A DNA stretch of 64,000 nucleotides from Bolinopsis microptera. Lineage: Eukaryota; Ctenophora; Tentaculata; Lobata; Bolinopsidae. Positions 12,876 to 57,700 of this stretch are shown piece after piece. The translations under genes were made by a program, and so were the position numbers. The stretch lies in the NCBI RefSeq assembly GCF_026151205.1, contig NC_087074.1, forward strand, positions 10,635,226-10,699,225, written 5' to 3'. A model generated the notes under the pieces. It saw nothing but the letters and a program-made list of their open reading frames with translations, was not told the DNA's origin and made no database searches. How positions within the stretch are numbered: the stretch's first letter is position 1; each line of letters opens with the position of its first letter.

Positions 12876-13826
12876 TCATAACCACATAATAACATGTGAC
12901 ATACCCGAGCAGCTAGCAAGTTTCCGAATACACTCCTTGAGGAAGGTGTTGAAGCTGGTTACAGTAAAACTGTATATAAAGAAGTTAGCGACAGTGTTGA
13001 AGTACCCACAAGTCGCTGCAAATCTGTAGAAATAAGTTCCCTTCACGTGGGCCCCAACCGCAAAGTAGATAGCGTAAGGTAGATAAGAGACACTGTAGAC
13101 AGACGCAGTAACAATGACTGTGAGGAGACCCTGCCACCTGAGGTTACCCCCACTTCTAGTTGTCACCTTCCTTGCTTTCAGCAGGTGTTGCACAAGCAGC
13201 AGGGTGATGGAGAATATCACCAAGTTTGGAAGGTAGGTGGTGAGAGCGAAGTAGGTGAGGAAGAGCCAGGATTTCCAGACTGGTGCTGAGTAGGCGTAGT
13301 TGTATCTGTAAATCCCGTAGTCAAATATGATGTCATCCGCTCCCCCTATGAAGAACCGACCCTGGCAGAGTAAGCTGACAACCCAAATGAAAGCACACAG
13401 TTTGTGAGCTCGTGTTTCAGACCAGTTTCTAGATCGCAGAGGGTGCTTTATCAGCAGCCACTTCATGATTATCAGTGCGAGAATGAGGAGTTTGCTGGAG
13501 AGGAAGCCGTAGTAAGGACCGTATGCCAGGATGTAACTCAAAAAGTTTCTACCAAACACGTTCCGATCTGCTGCTCTGGACACTGCTTGAGGGAGGATAC
13601 ACGTTCCAGAGACCACTATATCACTCACTGCGATGTGCTGGACGAAGACCACTATAACCTTGTGGAGTTTAAACGCTTTGTATTTTATAGAGGCTAGGAG
13701 AATGATAATGTCTCCCATTAAAGAGGCAAGGAGGATAATCATTAGCCAACCAGTCCAAATTATTAGGAACACTTCTTCTTTAGTGGAAACTCCGCGTTCA
13801 GTTAAATTGGAGCTGTTGTGGGACAT
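12876..13826 (-). CDS. rhodopsin-like (class A) G protein-coupled receptor
   Basis: A single-exon frame of 316 codons with seven hydrophobic segments. The N-terminus MSHNSSNLTERG has two N-glycosylation sequons (NSS, NLT). TM1 runs about residues 20-48; TM2 carries HIAVSDIVVSG in place of LAxAD. The third-segment end reads MKWLLIKHPL instead of DRY; TM4 has the expected Trp (FIWVVSLL); TM6 has SVSYLPYAIYF; TM7 reads NTVANFFIYSF in place of NPxxY. The ligand cannot be inferred. The atypical DRY and NPxxY positions suggest a lineage-expanded orphan receptor. It is the same general type as the broken receptor at 37-41 kb (same WxxxSL TM4 start). Confidence 0.88.
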   Translation of the reverse strand: MSHNSSNLTERGVSTKEEVFLIIWTGWLMIILLASLMGDIIILLASIKYKAFKLHKVIVVFVQHIAVSDIVVSGTCILPQAVSRAADRNVFGRNFLSYILAYGPYYGFLSSKLLILALIIMKWLLIKHPLRSRNWSETRAHKLCAFIWVVSLLCQGRFFIGGADDIIFDYGIYRYNYAYSAPVWKSWLFLTYFALTTYLPNLVIFSITLLLVQHLLKARKVTTRSGGNLRWQGLLTVIVTASVYSVSYLPYAIYFAVGAHVKGTYFYRFAATCGYFNTVANFFIYSFTVTSFNTFLKECIRKLASCSGMSHVIMWL

Positions 13827-13859
13827 CTCGAGGCTTTCCTGTCAAACCAAACCACTGCA

Positions 13860-23559: not shown

Positions 23560-24700
23560 TACTGGTAATTTAAAAGTAGAGCTATCGGAGGCAGCAGCTA
23601 GTCTGCAATGTGATTATACGGCCACGGAGAGATAAATAGAGCACGGTATATAGAGAATATAGAGGTATATATACCTCCTATATCGGAGAGGAGAGGTAAA
23701 TATACTTGAATACCAAAATATACTTAGTGATTGCAAGTTGCTATGACAAAGGGAGCTGGTAAATATGTTGCTACTCGATATGAAGGACAGGGGGGCACTT
23801 TGCTGGCGCATGACTCTGGAGAGAGAGAGAGAGGTGAGTTTGGGTGGTTTCAAATAACCTGAGAGAGCGTGCAGTGTTTGGGGAAGTGCTTAATTACAGA
23901 ATTAGAACGGAGATATCAGGTTAGCTGCAGGAGATGGAAATATTAGAGCATCATCGTTTCGTGATTAGAGATCGTGTTTAGTCACATAATAAAGATAGTT
24001 ATTGATCTGTAACTTTAAAATGTCTGATTACTGAACAACATTTTTGCTGAACTAAAACAAAATTGTGTTTACCTGAGTCTGGATTCTGTTGAGTGTTGAG
24101 TAATTTCTTAAGTCTGAACTCAAGTGTAATATTAATAACATCTTAACATACCTCAATAACAGTACACGGCTCTAGTGACCACTCAAGAGTAATGAAAAAC
24201 GCCGAATAAAGCCCGTAAGGTGTAGGCCCTAAGAACTGTAATATTGTTATGTACCTTTCGGATAAAGTAGATGGTGGTAGAAAATATTATTGTAATGTAT
24301 GATTAATGAAAATCGTTGAGAGATGTGTGAAGTTTAAAGGACATATTCGAAGTTGACGTTTGAGATTTACCTAACTTCCCAATTTGAATTTCAAAATAAG
24401 AATACCTATAAAGATTTGGACCTGGGGTCGTCGGACATAATGACATATTGTGCCTGCTCATTTTGGACGGTGAGAGTGACTAGAACTAACCTATTCAATT
24501 TGGTTTGGACACATAGTAAGACAGCACAAATATAGGTGAATTCTTCGTATATTTACATCACTAGCCTATAAAAATAAAATTAGGTTAGACTAATGAAAGC
24601 AATTTAAAAGTTAACAACTTGAAAATTTAAAACAGATTTTAATCTGAAACTTTACTAAAGAGCTCAATGTGCTAGGTAGAATGGACAACAGAGCATAACA
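23560..24700. other. no recognisable gene
   Basis: AT-rich. A short GA run occurs near 23820. Nothing supportable as a gene. Confidence 0.35.
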
Positions 24701-24706
24701 GATTAT

Positions 24707-26599
24707 TCAGCGAGTAACTACAATCCTATTTAACCCAAAAATATTAGTTCTAAATTTTGAAATAAGAATGCTCTCTTCTCTATCAAGTGCTGTTGGTCGG
24801 ACTTTTCTTACTACACCTAATTTAAAAACTCCCATAGTGAAATCAGATTTATGCGCTAGAAAACAATGCATGGAAAGTGCCGACTTCTCAAATGACAATT
24901 CATTATCAATTTTAAACTTGTTTCTGTGTCCATTCATTCTGATATGAAATGGAGAAACCGTTTGGCCGAAATAGGTATCGTCTTTTAGGCTCTGGGGAAG
25001 TTTATTACAAATTTGGCATTGGGCGACATAAATTATATTGCTGTCCTTACATGTCAACCGGAAATCCAGAGTTAAATCCAAACCATTGACAGTGATAACT
25101 TCGTTGGAGTTGAACAGTTGGGGACAGGTTGCACAGCCTCTCCCGCCACAGTTTTGGCTGACGGTGAAAGAATCCGTTTCGGAGCACGAACTGAGTTTTC
25201 TATTGCGCACTACTGTGTTGCCTATAGATGGCTGTTTACGTAGTGCAAACAATATCTGTACGTCTCCGCATAATAGTTTGATGTCCTCACTAGTAGAGTG
25301 TACCAACTTCCTAAGTTCAGTGACCTCTTTGAAAAATTTCACTGAAAAGACAACTTTGTCAGTGATTGGCTTCTTATCTTCCCTCTCATACAAATCGTGT
25401 TCTATTGATCTCAAGACTGCTTCAGGCTCTGTTTCCGTTAAGGTCCCCTCCTTGTGTCCACTTTTCATTAGGTCTTCTTTAAGTTCCTCCAGGTCCTCCA
25501 CACATGTGTGATCCTGCGAATTTCGCTTGATCACTCGGATCATCTGTGAGAATACTACTGATTTAAAGACGTGGTTTGGGTGGAAACTATCAGTATTAAG
25601 GTAAAGCCTGGCATCAGTCTCTTTCTTAAATAGTCTGTAGTCGATGTTGTTGTTCTCCCCCAGGGAGAGTTCTACATCCAAGTAGTTAACTGATTTGCCA
25701 AACTGACAATCACCGAACTGAATTCCAAATCGTTTTGCGGCTTCATTTAGTTTCGACACAAAAAGATCAAATTGCCTCCTGGAGCCCTTCCAAATTCCAA
25801 AGACATCGTCGATGAAGCGTCGCCAGAATAAAATAAGACTCCATAGCTGTATCATTTCAGGCCAGATGTTGATGAATAGCACCCAATGAAGCATGATATC
25901 AGCGACTTGACGCGAAATACAATTTCCAGTTGGGATACCCTTTTTGCCTGTGTACACATTTTCTTGAAAAGTGACAAAGGAGTTTGTGAAGATAATCTCC
26001 GTGAATGTTTTCAGAATAGCCTTTCGTTTATCAATCATAGTACTACCGTTCAGGGCATGTTCCAATGCAGACATAGCTATTTCAGGTTTTATGCTTGGAT
26101 ACAGACTGATCACGTCTAAAGTAAACAAGTTGATGGTGCTATATTTTGACATGTCTGCCGATTCATTAAGGTTTTTTATGTTACTGAGAAGGTCTGGTGT
26201 ATCCAGGAGAAACTCCTGTTGGCAATAAATCCTACTTATATCTGTTAGGTATGGGCTAACCCACTTTTCTAGCCTGTAAAGAGGGCCCTCCTTAGTGGCA
26301 TGGACAAGCCTGGTAGGGGGAACTATTTTCCCCTCAATCTGTTGTGGACTTAATTTATGCAGCTTAAATAGAGGGTACACATAAGGGACTACTGGTTTGA
26401 ATACATGTGCATGCATTTGGTTATTATTTTCATTAAGTCCAGTAATGAGTTTCTTGTCTTTTTCTGTGATTTTCCCCTCTGATAAAGCCAGAAGAACTGC
26501 ATCCTTAACATTATTCTTCACATCTGTCATTTTCTCTTGAACTAACCTAGTGTAAGTCTTACAGCGTGAAAGTGTAATGGTATAAATTATACCGTACAA
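24707..26599 (-). mobile_element. Penelope-like retroelement, open RT plus GIY-YIG frame
   Basis: An uninterrupted frame of 630 codons. The reverse transcriptase has YVYPLFKLHKL, NLFTLDVISLYPSIKPEIAM (catalytic Asp), KKGIPTGNCISRQVADIMLH, FWRRFIDDVFGIW (the DD pair) and NYLDVELSLGE. After a linker with a CxxxxxGCATCP word comes NIIYVAQCQICNKLP ... TYFGQTVSPFHIRMNGHRNK, a GIY-YIG nuclease of the Penelope type with its CxxC insert. The first ATG of the open stretch is at about 26530 (MTDVKNN). The region upstream of the RT is short, so the copy is probably 5'-truncated. No stop or frameshift in the core implies recent insertion. Confidence 0.93.
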
Positions 26600-29365: not shown

Positions 29366-29484
29366 TATACGTACAAATGACGCATGTCACTTTCTTTGTC
29401 AGAAAATATCCCCCATAAATCAAACTATACGGGATAGTTTGATTTATAGGGTCAACTTTCTGTATAATAATTAATATTTGTGGT

Positions 29485-29545
29485 ATTAAACAGGAATTAA
29501 ACAGGAATTAAACAGGAATTAAACGTGAAACAGGAATTAAACATG
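29485..29545. repeat. 12-bp tandem repeat
   Basis: Four to five copies of AAACAGGAATTA, one with a small insertion. Confidence 0.85.
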
Positions 29546-29689
29546 ACATGACTAAGGAGAACACTAACGAACTCGTTTTGGTAATACAAGAATTCATAAA
29601 GACGATCAGAACTCTAAAAATCGAGAGAAAGCTATAAAAATAAAATCTTAAAAATTAACCGCGTTACAAATTCACGAAAGAGAAGACAA

Positions 29690-30090
29690 AAATCGAATAT
29701 AATGATTTAAATACGATTAAAAAGAGTCATGGGGATTTGATAATGAAGATGAGTAGGAGACGGGAGGTGATGAATAGGACTTCTTTTCAGGAGGATTTCG
29801 AAGGTGAAAGGATTCTGTGAGGTACTTTCCAAATTCTGTTGCATGGAATGAGTTCATGATGGCCCCATATTCTTAGAGCATTATGAGGCTTTTAAGGTTG
29901 TCTGAGAGGTTGGACCAGAGGGAGTTGTAGCTGGGGCATTCATTTATGACGTGGTCCTCGGTTTAAAGGATTGGTGTTTCAAAGAATGGTATTTCTTCGA
30001 ATAACCGCATGACGTCGGTGTCTGAGGAGCAGCAAAAGCGACATGTTTTCAGTGCAGTGTTGTAGCGATCTCCATTCTCCAGTGTGGCGA
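29690..30090 (-). pseudogene. decayed LINE C-terminal fragment
   Basis: The minus strand reads GDRYNTALKTCRFCCSSDTD ... EDHVINECPSYNSLWSNL ... AIMNSFHATEFGKYL, the zinc-knuckle C-terminus (CxxC...HxxxxC) common to LINE polyproteins. Two in-frame stops show decay. Confidence 0.7.
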
Positions 30091-30295
30091 TAATATACCA
30101 CAGCCGTGAAAATCTGACCTCTAAATACAAAGCTCTTTATAATAATTTTACTTTTACATGTTTCAAGTTCTCGCTTTTAATGGTCAGCTATATATAAATA
30201 TACCCAGCAGCACCTTGATTCTGATCTTTCAGAGATATATATATTAGAGTTGCATCAAAATGTGCTAAGTACATGGTATTTATTGAACAGCATGC

Positions 30296-30415
30296 GAGCC
30301 TTTGTTTTACCAGCGTAGCCTTTTAGCTTAGAAAATCTTATACATTGCTGCTCGAGCTTTCTGTTTTATCAGCGTTGCCTTTTAGCTTAGAAAATCTTTT
30401 ACATTGCTGATCGCT
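30296..30415. repeat. two-copy tandem duplication, about 60 bp unit
   Basis: Two diverged copies share GCCTTTTAGCTTAGAAAATC and ACATTGCTG. Confidence 0.75.
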
Positions 30416-30419
30416 TTCT

Positions 30420-31140
30420 TAAATATTTGGTTTGATCTTATCACTGACTTATTAATGCACTACTAAAACAGTAAACGTGATTTCGGGGGTAATCAATACC
30501 CACATCTAAATTTAAGTGATATAAATTGTCGTAGATTATCGATTTTGCAGAATATTGAACCTGGAAAACCGATCAGATTACGAAATCTTCTAAAAAGGGG
30601 ATGAAAATATATTCGCAATGGCCAAAATTGTACAATGTACAAAACATATGCCACGCACTACGCAGCAAATGCATTCTATCGCTCTGAAATTCTATTTCAA
30701 GATTTATTGTAGTAAATCTCCATTTGTCAGACTATAATATCATTTCGGGACATAACTTAACACATTTTATAAATTTGTACTTCATCAGTCACGTTCAAAT
30801 TTAGCTCACACAAGTGGTATAGTTACTTACAGGTAATTATTTTACTTTGGATTTGTTAGTTGTCCGCTGTCAGGCTAGGTCTACCAATTCAGACAACTGT
30901 GTCAACTTGGTTATGTAATACAAAAAGCAGACAGTCAGCAATAAACAATTATTGTGAGATTAAAATTGTTATCGAATATGACAGCTCCAACAAATGTCGT
31001 TAAATAAAATAGCTTTTATTTGTAATAGAAGTAAGCTGCATGTAGTAGAAACATAATTGGGAAATCAGGATCAAATATGATCACACGTAACGCGCGCAAA
31101 TAACATGTGCTCTATCCAATGCGAAACTAAAAGTGATGAA
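30420..31140. other. no recognisable gene
   Basis: AT-rich spacer, nothing supportable. Confidence 0.35.
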
Positions 31141-31149
31141 AATAAGAGA

Positions 31150-31217
31150 TTAATCGACTGTAGAGTGATTTAGCGCGACCGGAATCTTTATGAACATAAT
31201 AACTTGGGGTCCCCAGG
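31150..31217 (-). repeat. solo end of the 375-bp element joined to a hairpin-repeat remnant
   Basis: AATCGACTGTAGAGTGATTT (31155-31174) is the reverse complement of the terminal repeat of the 375-bp elements at 37697 and 56664. It runs directly into GGAATCTTTATGAACATAAT and TTGGGGTCCCCAGG, a piece of the multi-hairpin repeat. Neither element is complete here. Confidence 0.65.
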
Positions 31218-31979
31218 TTGCAGGTTATAGTAATACATGTAATTGTATTGCGCGAGCGATTTTCAATTTCGCGCGTCCTGAAAATCGAGTCTACAAATTT
31301 ATCTCCTCCTACAATTTTAAAGCAATCACCCTGATCAAACTTTCGAAATATGTTCTACGGATCATTTAAAAGAGATGAGCCAGACAAAATTTTTTTGATA
31401 GGCCTTTAAACATTTTTATTTGATTTTTATCTTGGACTTTCAAAAAATCGTCAAAAACGGCCCCCTTAAGGCTTAATTAGCGTTCTGCATTTGAATTCAA
31501 TTTGAATTCAAACAACTAGTGGACTAGAAGTAAAGATGTTTTATGAAAAAAGGAGAGTATGACTTTGCTTGTGCAATAATTAAGGGTTTGTTTTTATAAT
31601 TAATAGTTAAAAATTTGTTCGACTACACCCCCAAACCATGTATTTAGGTACAATAACGACCGAAACCTGAAAATTGAGTAAGAGAGTCCTTTGAACTTTG
31701 AACTGTTTGGACTTTTGCATGGAGATGTGGGAAGGTTAAAAACCCCCATAAAGGGGAGACCCCGTAGTGGTAGCCCAACTACCGCTCTGTTATGCTTGCT
31801 TTACAAAAACAGTGGGTATCATCAAGGCTCAAGACAGGAGACTATGCCATCAGTTGGTTGATGTTCAACGGTTCGTTCGAAAAGTACATACCCAAAATCG
31901 AAAACAGGTTCAACAGACATCCAGCGTAGTATCCATTTCGGGAACGAAAACGTTAACAAAGGCCGGAAAAGAACAATCA

Positions 31980-32465
31980 CCTCTGATAAAATTACGACTC
32001 TTCTTATAAGGTCAGGATGAAGAGTCTTGGAGTTGAGGAGAATACTCGTGAAGTCTTCTCCTATTTATCGGGGAGCCACTTGGTCACCTCTGACATCATG
32101 CTCGTAGGTGACCTAAAATGCTCGTACAGGTGGTGTCAACCTTAATCCCAGTGACAAAAGACTGGATGAAAAAGAAGAAATCGAATGCACCCAGACCTTG
32201 CCGAGCTGTAAAGATTTGTACTATATGAAAGAGGTAATAGATTCCTTGACCTTCTGGGCAAGCTTGTGTCCTCAATCTATTGAACGGCAATGTTCATTGG
32301 TGCATTTTTGGTGAGCTTCACCTGCTATCAGTACAACGGACAAGTGTCGTTGACTTCATAGCAGTTTCACCGAGCATCTGGGAATATGGTGAACGGTTCA
32401 AAGTTCTTTCCTTAACTAACTTATCAGATCACAAACCTTTCCTCTGTCAACATACTAGTTAGAAT
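31980..32465 (+). pseudogene. decayed LINE endonuclease fragment
   Basis: Readable pieces are VTSDIMLVGDL (the GDFN region) and SVVDFIAVSPSIWEYGERF then NLSDHKPFLC (the terminal SDH motif of APE endonucleases). They lie in different frames with stops between. Confidence 0.7.
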
Positions 32466-32689
32466 CAATTGTTAGCCTATGTATTAATTCAAGAGGCTTC
32501 TTAAGATGCACTAAATGACCGAAAATGGGATGAGAGATGAATCGGCCCACCCACTGTTATGTAATCTAATTGAAAAACGCAGCGATACCACCCAGCGAAG
32601 ATTTTTGTGACTTCAAAGCCTGTGGGTTCAACAGACGAATATCTCCGATAAAGAGCCAACGGATCAAATACAAAATTACTTGGGAATGT

Positions 32690-33237
32690 GTAACTCTAGC
32701 AGTAAAAACTGCCCGTAGGCCCCATTTAGTTGCTCGTTTAGCTCAGTCAGTCAGGGATAGTTATGGATATGACTTGCCGATAGCTTGCTACGACGACGGG
32801 CCAAATGATTACCCTCGAGGTATTAGAGAATCAGAGATCGGTTAGCTCAGTATCCGTTATTGACGTACGTTGTCAGTGACGATGAGGATCTGGGAATAGC
32901 AGAGGGGAGAAACAAAGCCCTCAAAATGGTTGAAACAAAATATTTCTTCATTTTGGATGACGACGTGATGTTTATGAACACAACAAACATGCAAACGCAA
33001 ACCATGATTGACATTTTGGACACGACCGATGCCACACTTGTTGGTGGTCAGCTACTTGGAAGGGCAAATTTTGCAGCTTTAATAAAGTTTGGATATTTCG
33101 GTGGAACCCTCAGAAGATTGGGATACTTCCCTGGAACTTGTGCAAAACTTAACCAAACCGTTCCGAACTACCCGCGGTGTTTGAGATGCGAGCTTAACTC
33201 AAATATTTGGATGGCAACTGACTTACTGACTTAAGGC
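32690..33237 (+). pseudogene. beta-1,4-GalNAc/GlcNAc transferase-like (GT12, B4GALNT type) fragment
   Basis: The first part (about 32690-32835) reads VKTARRPHLVARLAQSVRDS ... ACYDDGPNDYP, the start of a GT-A glycosyltransferase fold. It shifts frame, then 32842-33234 reads YPLLTYVVSDDEDLGIAEGR, NKALKMVETKYFFILDDDV (the DxD metal motif as DDD), LVGGQLLGR and a CxxC pair (YPRCLRCELNS). The family transfers GalNAc from UDP-GalNAc in the Golgi. A stop at 33235-33237 comes before the conserved downstream acidic region. With the frameshift and LINE debris on both sides, I call it a broken copy or lone exons. Confidence 0.7.
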
Positions 33238-33390
33238 GGCTTCAGCGTCTGAGTATTGATGCGCTGTCTCCATAGAACTCTATCCGCCATAAGTCTGCCC
33301 ATTTCTCCAGTGTCGTTGAAACCCGTGTCAGCTCGTAGTTAGGCTATCAACATAAGTCATGGCTGGTCTTCCCTACTCTGCACCCCATGA
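33235..33390 (-). pseudogene. decayed LINE 3' end
   Basis: The minus strand reads GRPAMTYVDSLT, then in a shifted frame DTGFNDTGEMGRLMADRVLW and RQRI. This is the RGRPxxTYVDxL...DTG...LMxDRxxWR tail seen at the C-terminus of many animal LINE proteins. Confidence 0.65.
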
Positions 33391-33599
33391 GTTGGATGGC
33401 AAGGACAGAGCCTATCCCACAAATCGGGAGATGGGATCCTGAGCTGAAGGTTTTTTAGCACCTTCCACAACCCTATCAGGGTTAGGAAGGTAAAACCATG
33501 GGGTGCCCTACATAGACTGAATAAAATCTGGAAATCCAAACTTTCTAAATTTTCAGCGGAATAAACAAAAATTGTTTGAGTCATACTTTACAAATATAC

Positions 33600-34135
33600 G
33601 TACCAATCATTTATTATAAGCGTGATAACATATAGTAAATGAGGATGTTACAAAAGGAATTAATTTAATGTAGTTTGAGGAGTCCTAACTCTCCTCACGT
33701 CCAAGAATGGCGTTTCTTTTGTCGTTAATTATATAAGCGTGATATAACACTCTCGTCAACAGATATAAAAGTCTTATTTTCTGATCTAACATGATATTAT
33801 AATAAAACATACTTGAACTTTTATCATTTTAATCATTTGTATTCTATCGTCAGCTCAAACAACTTATAAACATCATCTTCATGCTTTTTGTATCTAACAG
33901 TAACATAAATCTAATAAATCTGTATCTGTAACTCTGTAAGTCAAAACTATTACAAACGTATAGTATAGTATCGGTAAAACAGAGAGTACTTCTGATATTC
34001 TACAATAATATGATCTGTTTTTACTTTCCACTAATCAAAATCTAGATTTGTCAAAATTTCTTGGTTCGACATTTCAGGGTGATTCAAAAAGAATGTTCGT
34101 ATTTTTAAAATGTTTTAAAATTTTACAACATTCCA
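33600..34135. other. 3' flank of the large minus-strand gene
   Basis: AT-rich with no open frame. Probably the 3' UTR and downstream region of the gene ending at 34136. Confidence 0.4.
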
Positions 34136-36720
34136 TTAGTATTTGTTGCAGATCTTCTCCTCGTAGTAATCGTATTCCGGAGATGGTCCCTTAATTCTGA
34201 GGGAGATACAATCGGAAGTTTGGAAATTCTTTGGTTTCTTCATCTTCATTCTTACAGCAGCCACACCATTATTGACTCTGACCTGAATAAAGTACATAAG
34301 ATTAAGTTGGGCTAGTTGCGTTGCAATTATGTTTAGCAATAGCCACTTAGATGATTGATGCTTTCTTCATTTCATGTTTTCACTGGGCGCCGCTCAGCCT
34401 GTCATTCCGCCGCATTATAGCCTGGGGTCCCGGCTAGGTAATTCATGATTATTATATTTTTTGTCGCATCGATATCTGTGAGAATTAGCCGATAAAGTGA
34501 TAACGCGTTTATAATTGATTTTACAATCTTTTCATTATTTTATAGGTTTACCCTGGCTTTTGTAGCTTTGCTGGAGGACTTGATTGAGCTGATGGTAAAG
34601 TCAGAGGGATCGAGTTTGAAGATACCTCGCTTCAGGTCCAGTGGCTTACCGTATTTCAGCGCCTATCAAAGAATGATTTAGTACGATAAGGTATTATCTT
34701 TTAATAATTATATGTAAAAATTGGAAATGTCATTAAAAGATTAAATACGTTAACCTATACCTATTCTATTGACCATGGGTCAGGTTTATTAACAACATAT
34801 CTGGGTATTATTAAAGTATTAACTTAGGTTAACCGTGTATCTAACCACAACTCCGTTTACTTACTGAAACTTCGAATATCAGGGAGATGGTCTTTTTGGA
34901 CCAGCTTGCTTTTATATTGTCCTTAAGCCTGTACTCAAATGCGGCTGAAATATGAAGTTAATGTAATTAGTTAAATTCTCAAGTCACGTCCGCCTGAAAG
35001 TAAAATTATTAGTTTAAAAATGTGTTATAACTGTATACAGTGCTTACCATGTAGTTACCATGTGGTTACCCATCATACCAAACTTATATAGTTTCACTTT
35101 CACTTCTCTCAAAGTCAATAAAGCACAGGCCCAAAACATGATTTCATCTCAAAATTATGGTTACCTTATCCGTTATCGGTCATAATTATCACGGACATTG
35201 CTTTCACGCTGAAGACCTTAGCGTGAATAATTAAGTCCGTGAAAATAATGTCTGTGGCATTAAGGTCCGTGAATAATAAAGTCCGTTAATTATTTCCATT
35301 AATTGTAATATGGGTGTCCCTACATATGCGTAGATATATGTGTAGCCGATTACTATATTAGTTTATTAGTATACTTATAAGACAAATATAATCACTCCTC
35401 AGTCACATTCAAGTGTTCAGCAAAAAGAGTAAAACACTTATTAAAAATCCCCAAAAAATTTTCACAATTTTTTGGAAAATTTTGGGCGGTCATGAGCGTG
35501 AATAATTATGTCCGTGAAAAATTTGGTCCGTGAAAAACGTGTCCGTGAGAATTATGCCCGATAAGTTATTTACCATTATAACAGAAGAGCCCAGCGACTT
35601 CGTTAAAGGCGCAAGGAAGCTTGGCATCAGTGTAGCGGGTGACAGAGCAATGTTGGAAAAGGAAGTCATCGTCTCTAGGACAATACATTTGGGTGAAGAG
35701 GAAGTCCACCCTGTCACTCTGTAGAGACACAGCTCTGCCGAACTGAAAGGGGAAACTTTAGTATTACATGAAATACGTGGTGTGTCTCACTTTTGAGCAT
35801 GGACGCACTTTTTTTCTTCCGTTGGCATAAAAATCTGCTTTTTGTGGTCTCACAATTTTGCACATAAATATGGATTATGATACCTTCAACAGATACCGAT
35901 TCAAGTTGGAATTCTCACATTATATCCATGTTGTTTGCAGACAAGTTGAGCCTCTCTATCACTCCAGCCGTCATCACAGAGCAGTCCCCATTTATCAGCA
36001 GCTCCAGTTGAGTCTGGTGTGGCTATCTCCAGGATGTAGGTTCCAGGGGCAGCTTGTTCCACTAACCTTGTTCTGATGCTCACTACGTGGAGTGTAAGTT
36101 TACAAATTAGAAGTTATAGTGACATTCAAACCTCACAATACTGCAATAGATATAAGCATGAACAAAAAAGTATGCATTTTTGTTAATCCTCAGCTCTGTT
36201 CTATGTTCATTAACACTTTAACAGGATTAAAATGCTCCCAATCTAAAAACACATTTGCACATGACAGTTAGCTACGATAGTTCAAATACGCACATTTTTC
36301 ACAAACAGGGTAGACAGCCTGGCCTATCTTGTTGCAGAAGGCAGTGTTACCACTCTCCTTCTGGAGCCTGTAGCCATCGTCACACTTGAAGGTGTAACTA
36401 GCGTCCTTGCCTGTCCCTGCTTTGTCTACAGCTTTGCCGTTATCAATGTAGGGTTTTAGCTCACATACTGGGAAGTAAGTGGTTAGCTGCAAATAAACTG
36501 GTGGTGTGCGCTAAATACTGGGGACGTTTGTAGTTGTAAAATATGGTTTTACAGTAAACTTAGACTAAATCCTATTCCATGTTTAGTATGATTAAAAGCT
36601 GTTACAGACCTTCTTTCTCGCAGATGGGGCAACATTCTCCCTCCTTGTAGACAGGTACACAGTCTTCCTCCATTTGCCAACAGTCGGCTACCGCACAGGA
36701 CTGCTCCTTCTCCCCTTCGC
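34136..36720 (-). CDS. exons 18-24: last VWC half, CCP, SRCR and unknown C-terminus
   Basis: Exon 18 (36720-36610): EGEKEQSCAVADC ... GECCPICEKE completes the VWC of exon 17. Exon 19 (36467-36294): a CCP-like domain, CELKPYIDNGKAV ... YTFKCDDGYRLQ ... VYPVCEK. Exons 20-21 (36082-35919, 35742-35574): SRCR domain, KWGLLCDDGWSDREAQLVCK, GYN/FGRAVSL, QMYCPRDDDF, EVAGLFCYN. Exons 22-24 give an unrecognised region (AAFEYRLKDNIKASW ... FKLDPSDFTISSIKSS ... VAAVRMKMKKP) ending EEKICNKY and a stop. No GPI or membrane signal. Phases: 1, 1, 1, 0, 1, 0, 0. Confidence 0.82.
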
Positions 36721-39700
36721 CTGAAATTTTAACAATCAGCTATTATATGACGGCAACTAACCGACCTTAGAAATAATACACTACAATCGTATTAATTGCG
36801 TTATATTTCTCTCGTTTTTTCGATTCTGGAAATGAACTACCATACTGAACTTTGGGTCATATAAAAAGAGTATAATCACACAGTCGATATAAAAGTATTG
36901 TACATCACAATTACTTTAACAATTGCATGAACTGCATGGCAGAATTGATCAATGACAATCATCATTACTTTTGGCATAGAAAAGTTTTACAAGACAAATG
37001 AAAATAACATGAATCAGGAGTTTCTTTCCAATTCGAATATTCTGACACATATTTGATTTAAACATTTAATGACAGTAAAAATCTCATGTGGTAAACATAA
37101 AATAGCGAAATTCTACAAAGTCCCAATGGTCTCCGGAGATCAGAAAAATCTTTGCTGGTTTAATTTATTCAGTCAGTTTACTTCATTAGTCATTCAAAGA
37201 GAATATTTCGAAATTTTTCTGTATCATCAAATTTCAGGACATCACGATAAATCTGTGACTGTATTTGCCTGACTGTCAAAATCATCCTATGCTAGCTTCT
37301 GTCACTAATCTCTTCATCCTTGGAGACGCTTGCACGACCGGAACTACATGTGACAACGACTGTATAGAGATTGCAGGGGACGACGACCGAGCCTTAAAAC
37401 GGTTTCGAAGAACCAAACTCACGCGTGTCGCTGTATTCAGATGTTTCAAACGGCCATAGTCCCTGATATTTCCGGTCAAAAATAACTTTGCAAAGAGCGC
37501 GAACCTCTTGTTTGTGAAGGAGTATATCAGAGGGTTAGCAACGAGGTTGAAAGATAAAATGTACATGTTCATAGCATTGACGTAGCGGGGAATATTTGTA
37601 ACTCCGGCAACCGGAAGGGCAAAGAGAACAACAGAAGGGATATATGATACTATGTAGACCCAGCAAATCAGGGATATCGTCTTCACTGCTTTAAAGCGAG
37701 CGTGCTAAATCACTCTACAGTCGATCTTCGAGATTGTTCTAAAAGGGCCCCCGACGGTTGTAACCAACTTCAATCGATGTATTTTCGGACGCTGATTCCG
37801 AATCACCCCCCATGACATAGGGTTAAAATGCTCCCCTGACGAGATATTGGCGAAAAACTGTCTCGATCACGTGATATGACCGTATAAGGAAGTTAGTCTA
37901 ATTTCTCGTTAGGGTTAGGGTTTCAGCATATGTTTTTGTTAAGGATCGGGTTAGGGTTAGGGTTGGGATCAGATTAGAGGGTTAGGGTTTCGAAGATTCG
38001 TTCAGAACTAGCTAGAGAACGGGTTGAAAAAGTCACGTGACAGTCGAGTGTAGAGTGATTAATCATCATCCGCTTTAAAGTTACTCTCTCGGGTAGCAGA
38101 GTCTACGATAGCTGAATTAGCGTACACTAGCCGGAGAATGATGATGTTTGCTATCACTGTGATTATTGCTGGGATAAATAGATAAAATCCAGATATCATC
38201 CTCAATATCCGAAGGTATGTGGATACGCTATCAATGTTGTCCCAATCGAAGGGGCTGCAGTTCAAGTGTGAAGGTTCGTACTTTATTGTCGGTTTGATCC
38301 CCGTCAGACCGATCAGGGAGGTAACGTAGAATATCCGGCAGTTTACAAGAAGCCCGACTGGTCCATGGACCACTGGTCTATGGACCACTCTAGGTGGTCC
38401 ATGGACCACTGGTCCATGGACCACCTTATCACTGAATAAGTGGTCCATGGACCACTTTAACAAGGTCCATGGTATCAGCAAGCACTTTAGCTTCCATTAT
38501 CATATGATCCAATCATACGGTAGACTTCTTCGCTAAGATTGCAAGATGTCAGTATTAACTACGAAAAACGTCGCAGAGATATATAAGATGAATTGTGGTA
38601 CACAGCCATCGTCGTTTTCGATATACAAGACAGATACTTGTACACCACTACTGTGTTTTCAATATGAGCCACTCACTACACAACGAAATCCATCGGATTA
38701 CAAATACTGATGAGCATGCAAGGGATTTCCTCTTTCAACGTGGTATTCTGAAGTCCTCTCTTTCCTGTCCTGGCTGCTCTTCTGCTATGAACCTTGTACC
38801 CTGCTCCTCTAAGAAGTCCTCAGACCTTCTCATCTGGCGGTGTTCACCCTGCTCAAGGTTTAGGAACATACGAACGGATAGTGTTCTCTCTGGACAGAAG
38901 CTCACCTTCTCACTATTCCTACAGCTGGTTTTCTACCTCAGCATCAAATCCCTTGCAAATGTAGCTATCTCTCAGCTCATAGGAGTATCAGAGAACACCA
39001 TCAGTGACTGGAAGACCATGATACATACAAGAGTAGCTGACTTTCTGGTATCCAATCCCTCTCCTCTCGGTGGACCTGGTGTTGTCGTGGAGATGGATGA
39101 GGCCAAGTTCGGAAAACGCAAGTACAATAAAGGAGCTTACAGAGAAGGGCAGTGGGTGCTTGGAGCTGTAGATCGGAGCAACGGTAACTGTTTCCTACTA
39201 CCCTGTCCGAACAACAGCAGAGGTGCATCCACACTACTCCCTCTGATTAGACGCTGGATCCTCCCTGGTTCTGTTGTCTATACTGACGAGTGGGGAGCCT
39301 ATAACAGCCTAACTACCGCTGGCTACACTCATCACACCGTCAACCACTCGATCCAGTTCGTGGACCCGGCAACAGACAGTGAGAAGTATTGATTTTTTGC
39401 CATCGACCACAGTCTACTATATCCTTCAACTACATATTTGTACCCTCCACTACCCTACTATGGTTTACACATCTGACAAGGACAAGAGATTGAACAGCAT
39501 CAATTCCTGTGACCCAATCTGCAAACCCTCTACTCCTTTGGATAAGTCGACTCAACGAGGCAGACCGCTGGTGGTAAGCAGAGCACACCCCAACTTCTGC
39601 ACACACTGTGGTGAGCGCCATGCCTCTATATCCTGCGCTGCTGTGGATCCTGTCAACATAGACGCTCCTATCCCAACTAATTCTACAGCTCTCCCTGTCC

Positions 39701-42700
39701 CTCCTTCCAGATGCCCCGACTGCACAGTGCTGAAAAGAACGGGTCCTACAATTACAGTCCTTGATGGTGTCGAAAGAACCGTCACTATCACAGAACGAAA
39801 GCTCTGCCCAACCCACCTTGTTGGAGACTCCACTGCTCCTCCCCCTTCCCCTCCTTCCCCTACCTACGTTCCGGATTCTCCTCCACTCCCACCAACCTTT
39901 ATAGCTCCAGAGTCCTCTGCTCCTCCTTCTCAAGTCGCAGATACAGACCTGGATTTGTCTGTGCACACTGAGCAGATTCTCGAAAGATTAGAGAGTGGTG
40001 ACAATCCACTGAACCTGCTACCTAGAGACCCCTCTCGTCTACCTACCTCCCCAACTGTCGACTCTCCCCTCAACCTCATCGAGATACCGCCTCCTCAACC
40101 ACTACCAGAGAGCTCGGCAGGACCTATCAGACGGAGGAATACCACACGGAGGAACATGGAAGCAGCAATCCATCAACAATATCCTCTTGTTTTGGAGATG
40201 GTGAAGAGTGGGACGAGCGCAAGGCAGGCTATTCAGCAGATTCAGATGCCCAGATCAACGTTCTACAAGTGGCGTTTTGTTGCAGAAATGAAGCTTGTCG
40301 ACTCCTCACACTATCATCACCTAGCTGATCAGTTCAAGGGAACCAAGCTGTGTGATCAATGTAAATACTGTTTATTTGAGGACTCTGCCTCTCTCAGAAA
40401 GACAGAGGAGATGAGGAAGAGCTCCGACCTTCTCCCTCTATCTATGTAAATTGTATGTTATTTACTTTTGTAATACTTATTATACATATTGCAATCATAA
40501 AGATGCCAATTTCAATTGATAATAAAAAATTAGATATAATCTTCATGAGTTGACTTATGGTGGTCCATGGACCACTGTACCTTGGTGAAGTGGTCCATGG
40601 ACCACCTATAGTGGTCCATGGACCACTGGTCCATGGACCAGTCGAGCTTCTTGGAGACTGCCGAATATCCAGACCCCAGAAAGCACCATCTTCAGACGTG
40701 AGGGTTCCATGGGGCTGTTCAGCGGGGACGCCAGGACCCTTACCCTGTGACATGACATGATCGCAATCAACATAGCCTCACAACAAAACGGGATGTATCT
40801 GAGTATCCCACAGTAACAAACAAACGTCCCCAACAACCACCGTTCTGTTGCCAAGGTAACTAACATTGGTATAAACTGGAGGAATGTAGCCAACATGTCC
40901 GCCACTGCCACGTGCTCGATCAGGATCACTGAGTTTGGCTCCATCCGGATAGCATTGTATTTGAGGGATCCTAGAAGTACAAGTGCGTTTCCTCCCAGAC
41001 CGGAGATTATGACAAGACTGTTGTAAACAAGGAGAAAGGATTTGATTCCAGTGTGGTGCTCTCCCAATACATTGTCAAGGGCGGTGTGGTTGAGGATACT
41101 TTCCTCATCGACATTCCACATTCCTTCAAAAATTGTCAAGGTTACCTTATTAGCTTATTGAATAATGTCATTTTAAATTTACGATTGAGGGGCAGAGATA
41201 CTGTAAAAAAGAATTACCGTGAAAATTAAAAATCGAATGTACTGTTGAGTGTTGGCAACGTAAGTCATTAAGCCTTAAGGTAAATTAAAAATGGATCGCG
41301 ACTTAAATTCTAGCAATTTCCGTGTTCTTGTCCATTATAAGATATAACATCCGGATCTGATCGATGAATAGTCATCAGAGATCCAGGAATTTCATGAATA
41401 TACCACCAAACGAAGGCCGATTAAAGGGTTCCTTTTGTTCAGCTAACAATTTTAATGAACAAAAGGAACTCCTAGATTACAAGCTATGATGGCTATTTGT
41501 TCAGACAAGATGTGGCACTGCTCAATAAACAGGGACATAAACAAACGCACAGTCATAAAGCAGTCTGCAGGGCCACGTGAGAAGGTAAAAGTACCTATTA
41601 AGTATTAAACCAAATAACGCAGAGTTGTATCATATGCTGACAACTGAAAGGAGGAAACAGAGCGGCCTTAACAACATAAAATATATTACAATTAGAAGAG
41701 AGCAAAGGAGAAATCTTTCGTCAAGTTACCTGATTGTCTTTCTGCTTATGCTGCTGTCTATGTCCAGAAAATAGAAGGATAAACACAATCAGGTAACGTG
41801 ACGAAAGATTTCTTATTTGATCTCTTCTAATTGTATTTGTAGTACATTTTATGTTGTTGAGGCCGCTCTGTTTTCTCCTTCCTGTCGTCAGTACAATTAT
41901 ATGATATAACATTGTTCAGGTTCTATGAGGTTTCAAACTGGATTGAAATAAATCTAATCTTCAAGAGTATTATACCCAACATTGACCGGCGAACTGATAG
42001 CTACTTCAGAAGCAATGAAACTACAATCTTTTAGATAAAATGAGTCATAGTACTTTCAGCCGGAGCCATCATAAGTGACATAAATCTAAAAGATAGTATG
42101 GTTAGTTTCTAAATATAAACTCAAACTCTGAAAAGGAAACTGCCGTGAAATATGAAACATCAACAAAAGGACCAATTATTTTTAAAAATAATTTATGGAA
42201 AGCCCCTCAGACAAAATAAAAATCAATTATGCAATAAAGGAATCTAATCTTAAAAGGGTTTGTACTATTCATTCCTGAGGGGCGGAGGGAATTTAAGGCA
42301 TGTATATATCGGTGCTCCTTAACATCTAAACTACTAGGACTTGAATTTTCTAGGATACACACTGAAACACTATTGTTAAAATTTTTCTTCTGAGTCAGTC
42401 CATGCTCTATATGGAGGTGGAGTCCTACGCAGTTTGAGTCATCATCCGTGTCAACCTTTTGCCCTAATCTAATCTTATAGTCTCAATTACGAGGGTAGGT
42501 CAAAATGAACAGTGAACACGAAAACATGGAATGCAATTAAATCAAATCAAATTTTGGAACGTTAGGTGACCTGAAACACAACAGCACCTCTAACTACTTC
42601 AACACATTTCTACAGGTATGTACCTCAAGTATGTAACTGAAGTATGTACCTCAAGTATGTACCTCAAGTATGTACCTCAAGTATGTAACTGAAGTATGTA

Positions 42701-54700: not shown

Positions 54701-57700
54701 ATCCCTACAAGATGGAGTACAAGCACTTCCACACTCGTTGAACACCAGGTTGCTCTTACACTGACTTGAGTCACATTGGCTCACTGCCACGCACTCTCCC
54801 TCCTTCCAGATAGGTTTGTCAGCAGGACACTGACACCTGGGCACACAGTTCTTGGTGCAGACCGGATCAGGGTCGTTGCAAGTCTTCAGACAAGCCAGCC
54901 CACATTCGCTCCATTCCTGGCCACCACTACAAGTTTCTTTACTTGCGCTGCACTCTTCGACGACTTCCTCGCCGTCGAAGAAGTTAGCGAAACAGCCTCC
55001 ACAGTAGTAGGGCTTACAGGTTGCGTCCGAGTTTGAGGAGCATTCGTGTTGTTCACAGGGGTTGACGGGACACTTAGGTATCCAATCCTTGCACTCCTCT
55101 GGCGAAGAGAGGTGTAAAACATGATACATTTAATTTTAAAACATTTTTGATCTGGTTATTAATCTAGAGTTATTTCAACGATTTTTATTAAATTTCATGT
55201 ATGGAAAATGGTTGTCGCATCAGGTTCAATATCATTCCATAAACCTGCTTAAAAAGATTGACTTACCAGGTTCCTCTGGACAAGAAGATTCAGGAATGCA
55301 AACACGGTTATGAAGGACAGGAGCATCTTTAGGACACTCACATCTTCCTACACAGACAGCAGGACAGTCGAGATTATTCTCCTTTTTCCCACTCTCAGCT
55401 ATAGAGAACGCTTCAGTGTCTTCCTTATGACTACAAGTGCGCCAAGGTCGGACACATGCACTGCCACAATCATTGTATTCAAGGTTACTCTTGCACTCTG
55501 GTAGAATTTTGATATTAATGTTGGAGCGGAACATCTTCCGAAATGTCCAAGAACAGCCCTTGGGACATTTGAACTTATGACAATATGGCCAGTTAAAAGG
55601 ATTAAACGGGTTAAACGATTCAAAAATCAAATTACAATTGAAATGTCTAACCCAATTAAAAAAATAAATTTACCCAAAGTCAAAAAGTATATATCTATAT
55701 TATAATTTAAACTTGACGAAATTTCCCCGGCAACGGGGACATAGAAGAAAAAACACCGAAAATCGACCTCAAAATGACCCTCTGGTGAAATCAAACCCAG
55801 CTCGCAAATGGAGTTGAAACCTCGCCATTTTTAGCAGGGTTGTAGAAAAAGGATAGGAATAGGCTATAGCATTCTTAGAATTTTGATTTAGGCTTTAGAT
55901 TTTTTATAATTAACGTCGGAAGTGAGGTTAAATAATCGTTAGAATAATGGCGTTATTTTAGCAAAGGTTTACTGCGCTGTTGCGTAGAAACGTTAAAGTA
56001 GGAGGTGCACGATAAAAATAAACTTGCTCGGATTTTAAAAATTTTTGTACCAGTGTTTTCTAGAGACTGTGAGAATTTTCACAATACCAAATTTGTCATA
56101 CCTTTTTGGAAAGATCAGTGCCATATTTGATGGTGCGCGGCTTTTGGAGCAAAAGTAGCTGTAAAAGTCGCGTAATTTGACCAAATTCGTCCAAATTTGA
56201 CCATTTTTGTCGTATTATTCGGATTTATCTTCAGTTCCTTAAATGAGATCATTCTGAAAATTGGCGACGACCTTCCAATAGGGCTTTTACAACTGTCCGA
56301 AAAATTTGGTGGATATCGGAGTTGATATAGTGATCAAAATGGGGCAAAATACGCTGCTTTTAGCTGTAACATAGTTTCTGTTAATTGGATATGCTTTAAA
56401 TTTTTGGGACACTTTCCTTGTAAGTTTATGAGTAAGCTTACCAATTTTTGTTGCAATTGGAGGTCGGGAAGGATACTCAATATTTATTTGTTTGAAGAAA
56501 ATTGTGCTGGCCGAAATTAGCGCTAAAAAACCATCCTACAGTCGGCACGCGCGGCTCACTGTCGATGGCGCACTACCTAGTTAAAGTGCACGTGCGCGAG
56601 CAAGAACATCTTAACTACGCGCGTTGTTATGCTGTATGCTACGTCATAATTTCAAAACTAGCTCGAGCGTGCTAAATCACTCTACAGTCGATCTTCGAGA
56701 TTGTTCTAAAAGGGCCCCCGACGGTTGTAACCAACTTCGATCGATGTATTTTCGGACGCTGATTCCGAATCACCCCCCATGACATAGGGTTAAAATGCTC
56801 CCCTGACGAGATATTGGCGAAAAACTGTCTCGATCACGTGATATGACCGTATAAGGAAGTTAGTCTAATTTCGCGTTAGGGTTAGGGTTTCAGCATATGT
56901 TTTTGTTAAGGATTGGGTTAGGGTTAGGGTTGGGATCAGATTAGAGGGTTAGGGTTTCGAAAAGTCGTTCAGAACCAGCTAGAGAAAGGGTTGAAAAAGT
57001 CACGTGACAGTCGAGTGTAGAGTGATTAATCATCATCCAAACTAGCTCACATTTACGCTCACGCTATGACTTATATTCATAACTTTGGTTGTGATTGGTA
57101 TTTTTTGATGCGGTAAAAAGCATCGTTTTGGGAATCCGAATACTAACAACGCTGTCGCCATTGTTAGATAAATTCCATTATGTCTACAGTATAACAGAGC
57201 TATATGATGAAGAGAAATTAAAACATAACTGATTTTTAAAATTTCCTCGAACAAAGCTTTCTACTAGCGGGTTTCTAGTACATTATACAAAAGAGTTAGT
57301 TTAACTTTACAATAATATTAATAATTTTGGCCCAGTAATCGGTGGGGGGGGGGGGGGGGGGGGGACAATGGATGTTTTTTTGTGAAACTTGATTTCGAGA
57401 TAGCAATTGACCAACAAACTAGGACCAGTGACCGAACTTTTGAGGGGGTCCCGGACCCCAACCGCCAAACGGTGCCCGCGGGGCAGCCACGCCCATATTT
57501 GTTCCAAATTAGGCCCAATTTAGCCAAATACCCTGAACATGCCCAAAACCCAGATTTTAGGTGCTCTACTTGTAGCTAGTGGTCTCTTGAACTCGTATAT
57601 GAAATTTCATCAAGATTGGAGAAAAAATGACTGAGTTATGGGCCAAAAACCATATGCCCATATTTGGGCATACGCACCAAATTTGGTAGATTTCGTCCCA

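Follow-up and report, generated by a model that had tools for sequence, protein, structure and literature searches.

Natural null alleles made by transposons are known in which a recent insertion has broken a coding exon and the empty allele persists. The locus described here, from the ctenophore Bolinopsis microptera, resembles them, but it has two different transposon families in one reading frame. It lies in a 64,000-nucleotide stretch of contig C3 (NC_087074.1), which we call the window and number from its first letter. A gene for a rhodopsin-class G-protein-coupled receptor (GPCR; 37282-41121, minus strand) is interrupted there by a 2326-bp DNA transposon of the Merlin superfamily and by a 375-bp element that resembles a miniature inverted-repeat transposable element (MITE). 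The surroundings of the gene resemble a second described system, the false haplotype (or heterotype) duplications, in which near-identical adjacent blocks are joined by a doubtful fill; such fills between copies are a described mark of these duplications (PMC9516828). The usual proof of a false haplotype duplication is read depth together with haploid k-mers; the present case is argued from the assembly sequence. We consider it probable that the receptor locus is heterozygous, that the window holds an allele of it that two recent germline insertions have broken, and that the intact allele is also in the assembly.

The receptor gene has its ATG at 41121 and its stop at 37282 and is split into three pieces (41121-40663, 38336-38072, and 37696-37282, with the target-site duplications counted at both ends). 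Once a single copy of the duplication is retained at each site, the coding sequence is 1122 nt (373 codons plus the stop) and is open throughout. A first-pass annotation of this DNA had counted 1140 nt without a stop or frameshift. The frame is indeed open, but that count took a TTG at 41139 as its start and included the six codons upstream of the first ATG. Residues 44-294 of the predicted protein match Pfam's 7tm_1 over the full profile (positions 1-260 of 260, E = 1.5e-19), which identifies it as a rhodopsin-class GPCR. Its closest relatives of solved structure are the ghrelin, somatostatin, CXCR3, and galanin receptors, and because these match at E values of about 1e-9 to 6e-7, a peptide receptor is a reasonable guess and a guess only. 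The same annotation had described a GPCR split in the fourth transmembrane segment (TM4) by a 2326-bp element with an 8-bp duplication and between TM5 and TM6 by a 375-bp element with a 9-bp duplication. Both elements and their duplications are present, and a simple hydropathy scan agrees on the sites, placing the larger insertion in the fourth hydrophobic segment and the smaller one between the fifth and sixth hydropathy peaks. As it stands, the interrupted copy runs from TM1 to the middle of TM4 and then through element sequence up to a stop at 40606, and for this reason we infer that it is null.

An intact copy of the gene turned up in a protein search of the genome. It lies at C3:10478429-10479550, on the same contig and strand and about 194 kb upstream. 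The two copies differ at 9 of 1122 positions (99.2% identity) with no shift, and the intact copy is fully open, with 373 amino acids. After it, the next relative among the matches listed is only 36% identical to the GPCR. Both target sites are single and unduplicated in the upstream copy, which has no element and no excision footprint; it is the empty state at both insertion sites. Given such a copy on the same contig, our reading of the interrupted gene is not a product of chance. The simplest reading of the pair is that both insertions were exact and later than the split of the two copies. Four of the differences are synonymous and five are nonsynonymous (synonymous divergence, dS, 0.015; nonsynonymous divergence, dN, 0.006), and these nine are too few for a test of selection to decide. 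Other receptor genes in the genome also come in pairs. Two copies on contig C13 (6.54 and 6.63 Mb) are 95.3% alike, and we read them as ordinary paralogues. Another pair on this contig, C13:11221727 (plus strand) and C13:11515913 (minus strand), is 99.0% identical over 1478 bp without gaps, inverted, and 294 kb apart; it is possibly another duplicate or retained haplotype. The window itself has another GPCR frame, at 12876-13841 (7tm_1, E = 1.8e-13).

We infer that the two copies are alleles and not tandem paralogues. Under the proposed mechanism, the Merlin copy, itself non-autonomous, would have been moved into TM4, presumably in trans by the transposase of longer relatives, with an 8-bp duplication, and a non-autonomous MITE would have inserted in the loop between TM5 and TM6 with a 9-bp duplication. 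The two haplotypes of the heterozygous region would then have been scaffolded one after another instead of being merged, which would leave the intact allele ~194 kb upstream. A polymorphic allele was among the possibilities raised by the first-pass annotation, and it gains support from the doubly empty, intact copy in the same assembly, which is best read as the other allele.

The two gene copies lie in long collinear blocks. From 32570 to at least 63955 (plus strand), the window holds the block with the interrupted gene, which is collinear and in direct orientation with C3:10473663-10506953, where the intact one lies. At its far end (window 29471-31740), the upstream block matches C3:10890401-10892591. 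Our comparison covers these end parts of both blocks. Over ten aligned blocks, mismatches amount to 1.38% of ~13,988 bp (denominators are approximate, and short or indel-rich blocks and 36946-37696 are left out). The divergence is patchy: 90 of ~4791 positions differ in 51.2-56.0 kb versus 12 of ~4595 in 57.0-64.0 kb (p = 1.4e-15). Between 36946 and 63955, seven insertions of at least 100 bp are found in the window copy only and seven in the upstream copy only, and one further site differs in both. Seven window-only insertions in 16,304 aligned bp correspond to 0.48 expected in 1122 bp, with a probability of 0.085 for two or more; if the two hits in the GPCR are left out of the rate, the expectation is 0.37 and the probability 0.054. 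We considered whether two hits in one gene were a coincidence that needed explaining and concluded that, with insertions this frequent nearby, they are not surprising.

The main rival to the reading of the copies as alleles is a genuine tandem segmental duplication of roughly 190-220 kb. In its favor, both copies are full, collinear, and in the same orientation on a single contig, and the window contains no run of N. Under this reading there would be two paralogous GPCRs on one haplotype, one of which was turned into a pseudogene by two later insertions. Several other points weigh against two alleles. With no run of N, the join between the blocks is only argued to be a fill, and ~45 bp at the left of this fill (31696-32569) still carry on the upstream block, matching the far end of the other one, as a real spanning read would. 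The patchy divergence could be explained by gene conversion between tandem copies. Finally, the population paper describes low heterozygosity in California (PMC9585324). We nonetheless think a tandem duplication unlikely, though far from negligible, and it is the ends of the blocks that tell against it.

Between the blocks, window 31696-32569 is an interior piece of a retrotransposon without long terminal repeats (non-LTR), and it is rich in errors: it has 23-48 gap openings relative to each of four relatives, which have 0-3 among themselves. (One relative of this piece matches Exo_endo_phos_2 with E = 9e-9.) By sequence comparison, what is probably a doubtful fill of the kind described for false haplotype duplications lies between the copies. 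Similarly, C3:10473663 to ~10478088 has about 2.5-7 short indels per 100 bp relative to the window, and these drop sharply at window ~36.95 kb (C3:~10478.09 kb), to 0-2 per 500-bp bin. We considered whether the window might be the error-rich side of this alignment (32570-36945) and rejected the idea, as the glycosyltransferase-like and sushi coding stretches are intact in the window (the former with one shift) and broken upstream. In the third stretch, SRCR, the picture is mixed. The core can be read in either copy. The frame that is open upstream has a front part that is broken in the window, and we take this part to be non-coding. Both 31696-32569 and C3:10473663-10478088 look like raw-read gap fills at contig ends. 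Genes in these two stretches would appear broken through sequencing error alone.

The downstream block begins inside the glycosyltransferase-like gene, and the upstream part of this gene continues only beside the upstream block. (To the left of the upstream block, a match to C3:10.383 Mb turned out to be a neighboring glycosyltransferase-like paralogue.) Homology thus begins and ends where contigs appear to begin and end, which fits one haplotype's contig having been placed beside its allelic partner and counts against a tandem duplication. The junction retrotransposon was not seen in the outer flanks of the blocks that we examined (~7.7 kb on the left and 2.8 kb on the right). This also speaks against a tandem duplication, and it led us to reject recombination between flanking copies of the retrotransposon as the cause.

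Published accounts of the assembly bear on retained haplotypes as well. It is described as having been made with wtdbg, HiRise, TGS-Gapcloser, Purge Haplotigs, and pilon (PMC10232365). The k-mer-based size given there is ~254 Mbp, as compared with 264.65 Mb in the assembly that we analyzed, and 4.7% of BUSCOs are listed as duplicated in a B. microptera assembly (PMC11797021); we count both figures in favor of retained haplotypes. The source of a PacBio library is given as an F3 cultured individual (PMC9585324).

The first-pass annotation had also raised somatic or programmed removal, in which the elements would be cut out in some cells and the interrupted gene then used. In its favor, each element together with one copy of its duplication has a length that is a multiple of three (2334 and 384 bp), and the remaining GPCR frame is open. 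However, no GT-AG donor and acceptor pair gives exact splicing-out at either site, so we reject removal by such splicing for both elements. Furthermore, with nine differences in the coding sequence and no footprint of conventional excision, the empty copy is a separate lineage and not an excision product, and given this intact copy, removal is unnecessary. We consider it very improbable. Least probable of all is that the insertions themselves are assembly errors: error-rich joins do exist nearby, but the sequence around both elements is clean (from 37.0 kb on, each 500-bp bin has 0-2 short indels), and the elements end where their families end and are flanked by exact duplications of target sites that occur once in the other copy.

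The larger element (38337-40662, plus strand) belongs to the Merlin superfamily, relatives of bacterial IS1016/IS1595, as judged by its inverted ends, its IS1595-type DDE domain, and the 8-bp duplications of its relatives. Its own target-site duplication, GAATATCC, is at 38329-38336 and 40663-40670 and is single in the empty site (C3:10479092-10479099). The inverted ends have 89-nt arms that are 88% complementary, with part of the target duplication counted in. Among six family members with both flanks read, five have an 8-bp duplication, including the window's; the copy on contig C8 at 17.5 Mb does not. The transposase frame (38592-39392, plus strand, stop to stop) matches positions 6-104 of 153 in DDE_Tnp_IS1595 (E = 5.1e-14), and the match extends over positions 6-131 in a copy on contig C1 (E = 1.9e-18). 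In the window, this frame ends with DPATDSEKY, whereas the copies on C1 (6.15 Mb), C8 (17.5 Mb), and C4 go on with GVHTNTQEGLW. Compared with the C8 copy, ~436 bp are gone after DPAT and the frame stops early. We did not find the three catalytic acidic residues in one protein in the window's copy, in which the block after DPAT is gone; we take this block to have a catalytic role. Since its transposase frame is cut short relative to the longer copies, the window's element is a non-autonomous, deleted member of the family.

A second frame in the element (39313-40449, plus strand, stop to stop) encodes 378 amino acids and has a weak match to CCDC106 (E = 7.6e-5, under the curated cut-off). We read its end as helix-turn-helix-like. 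Across 233 bp, sequence of this frame recurs at 94-96% identity (and also at 77-83%) without the rest of the element, at C9:16005955 and C6:15716992, and it may have been captured or shared. A palindrome, TGGTCCATGGACCA, is repeated in both ends of the element (38358-38470 and 40556-40645), and these palindromes are possible transposase binding sites. The copy at C1:6148128-6156709, 8582 bp with an 8-bp duplication, holds what we read from its frames as a nested long non-LTR retrotransposon. We rejected the idea that it is a giant multi-gene element, as it is a shorter element with a nested insert.

Relative to other members of the superfamily, the window's copy differs in the deletion within its transposase and may differ in its second frame, and the account of Merlin in PMC8101967, as far as it deals with these elements, makes no mention of “two ORFs” (open reading frames). 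That account describes the superfamily as being without a Zn_Tnp_IS1595 domain, and we found no Pfam match to this domain up to E = 0.01 in the element's frames, but the transposase frame has two C-x2-C pairs near its start. Merlin elements are already known from three other ctenophores (PMC8101967). In a literature search we found none on Merlin transposons in Bolinopsis, and this weighs only slightly as evidence of novelty.

The smaller element (37697-38071) is non-coding and belongs to a large family. Its target-site duplication, GCTTTAAAG, is at 37688-37696 and 38072-38080 and is single in the empty site (C3:10478835-10478843). A first look at the genome gave 3005 candidate copies, 40 of which were scored, each at 97% or above. 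An exact 9-bp duplication flanks 10 of 13 hits at 12 loci (including the window's own), and the other three hits have none. We call the element MITE-like because of its size and copy number. Like MITEs with 9-bp duplications, it is short and non-coding, with numerous near-identical copies and a fixed duplication length. It differs in having no perfect terminal inverted repeat: none was found, the outermost bases are unpaired, and there is only an inner 22-nt inverted pair at 86%. The element contains short runs of GTTAGG, a common animal telomere unit, at window 37908-37989. A further copy in the window (56664-57038), 98% identical, lies in sequence that is missing from the upstream copy of the block.

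Both families look recently active, because the inserted copies have few changes of their own: 4 in the 2273 positions of the Merlin element for which two or more of the seven comparison copies have sequence, and 2 in the 375 positions of the MITE as compared with 11 relatives. The near-identical copies of both families support the first-pass suggestion that the insertions may be very recent. That the rest of the GPCR frame is intact after so short a time would be unsurprising.

The locus is most likely a clean but ordinary case of mobile DNA knocking out a gene. We lean, by a little, toward a broader proposal: that a living ctenophore population carries a segregating receptor knock-out allele, with the reference animal as a heterozygote, and that the two transposon families responsible for it remain mobile, one being a Merlin with two frames that works in trans on deleted copies. 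If so, there should be animals homozygous for the loss of this peptide-receptor-like GPCR, and they could be set against their intact siblings. The locus would provide a probable natural null allele of a GPCR in an early-branching animal, and for two recently active transposon families, Merlin among them, a single assembly supplies both filled sites and their empty counterparts. It is also a warning that parts of the assembly may carry both haplotypes in tandem and that these could be miscounted as gene duplications or pseudogenes. Literature searches on insertion polymorphism in ctenophores and on comparable null alleles gave nothing on point among the matches listed (8 of 38 and 8 of 237, respectively).

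Elsewhere in the window, the region of a 635-amino-acid frame at 24495-26546 has no Pfam match. It has at least nine near-full copies at 97-100% identity, and we would guess that it is Penelope-like.

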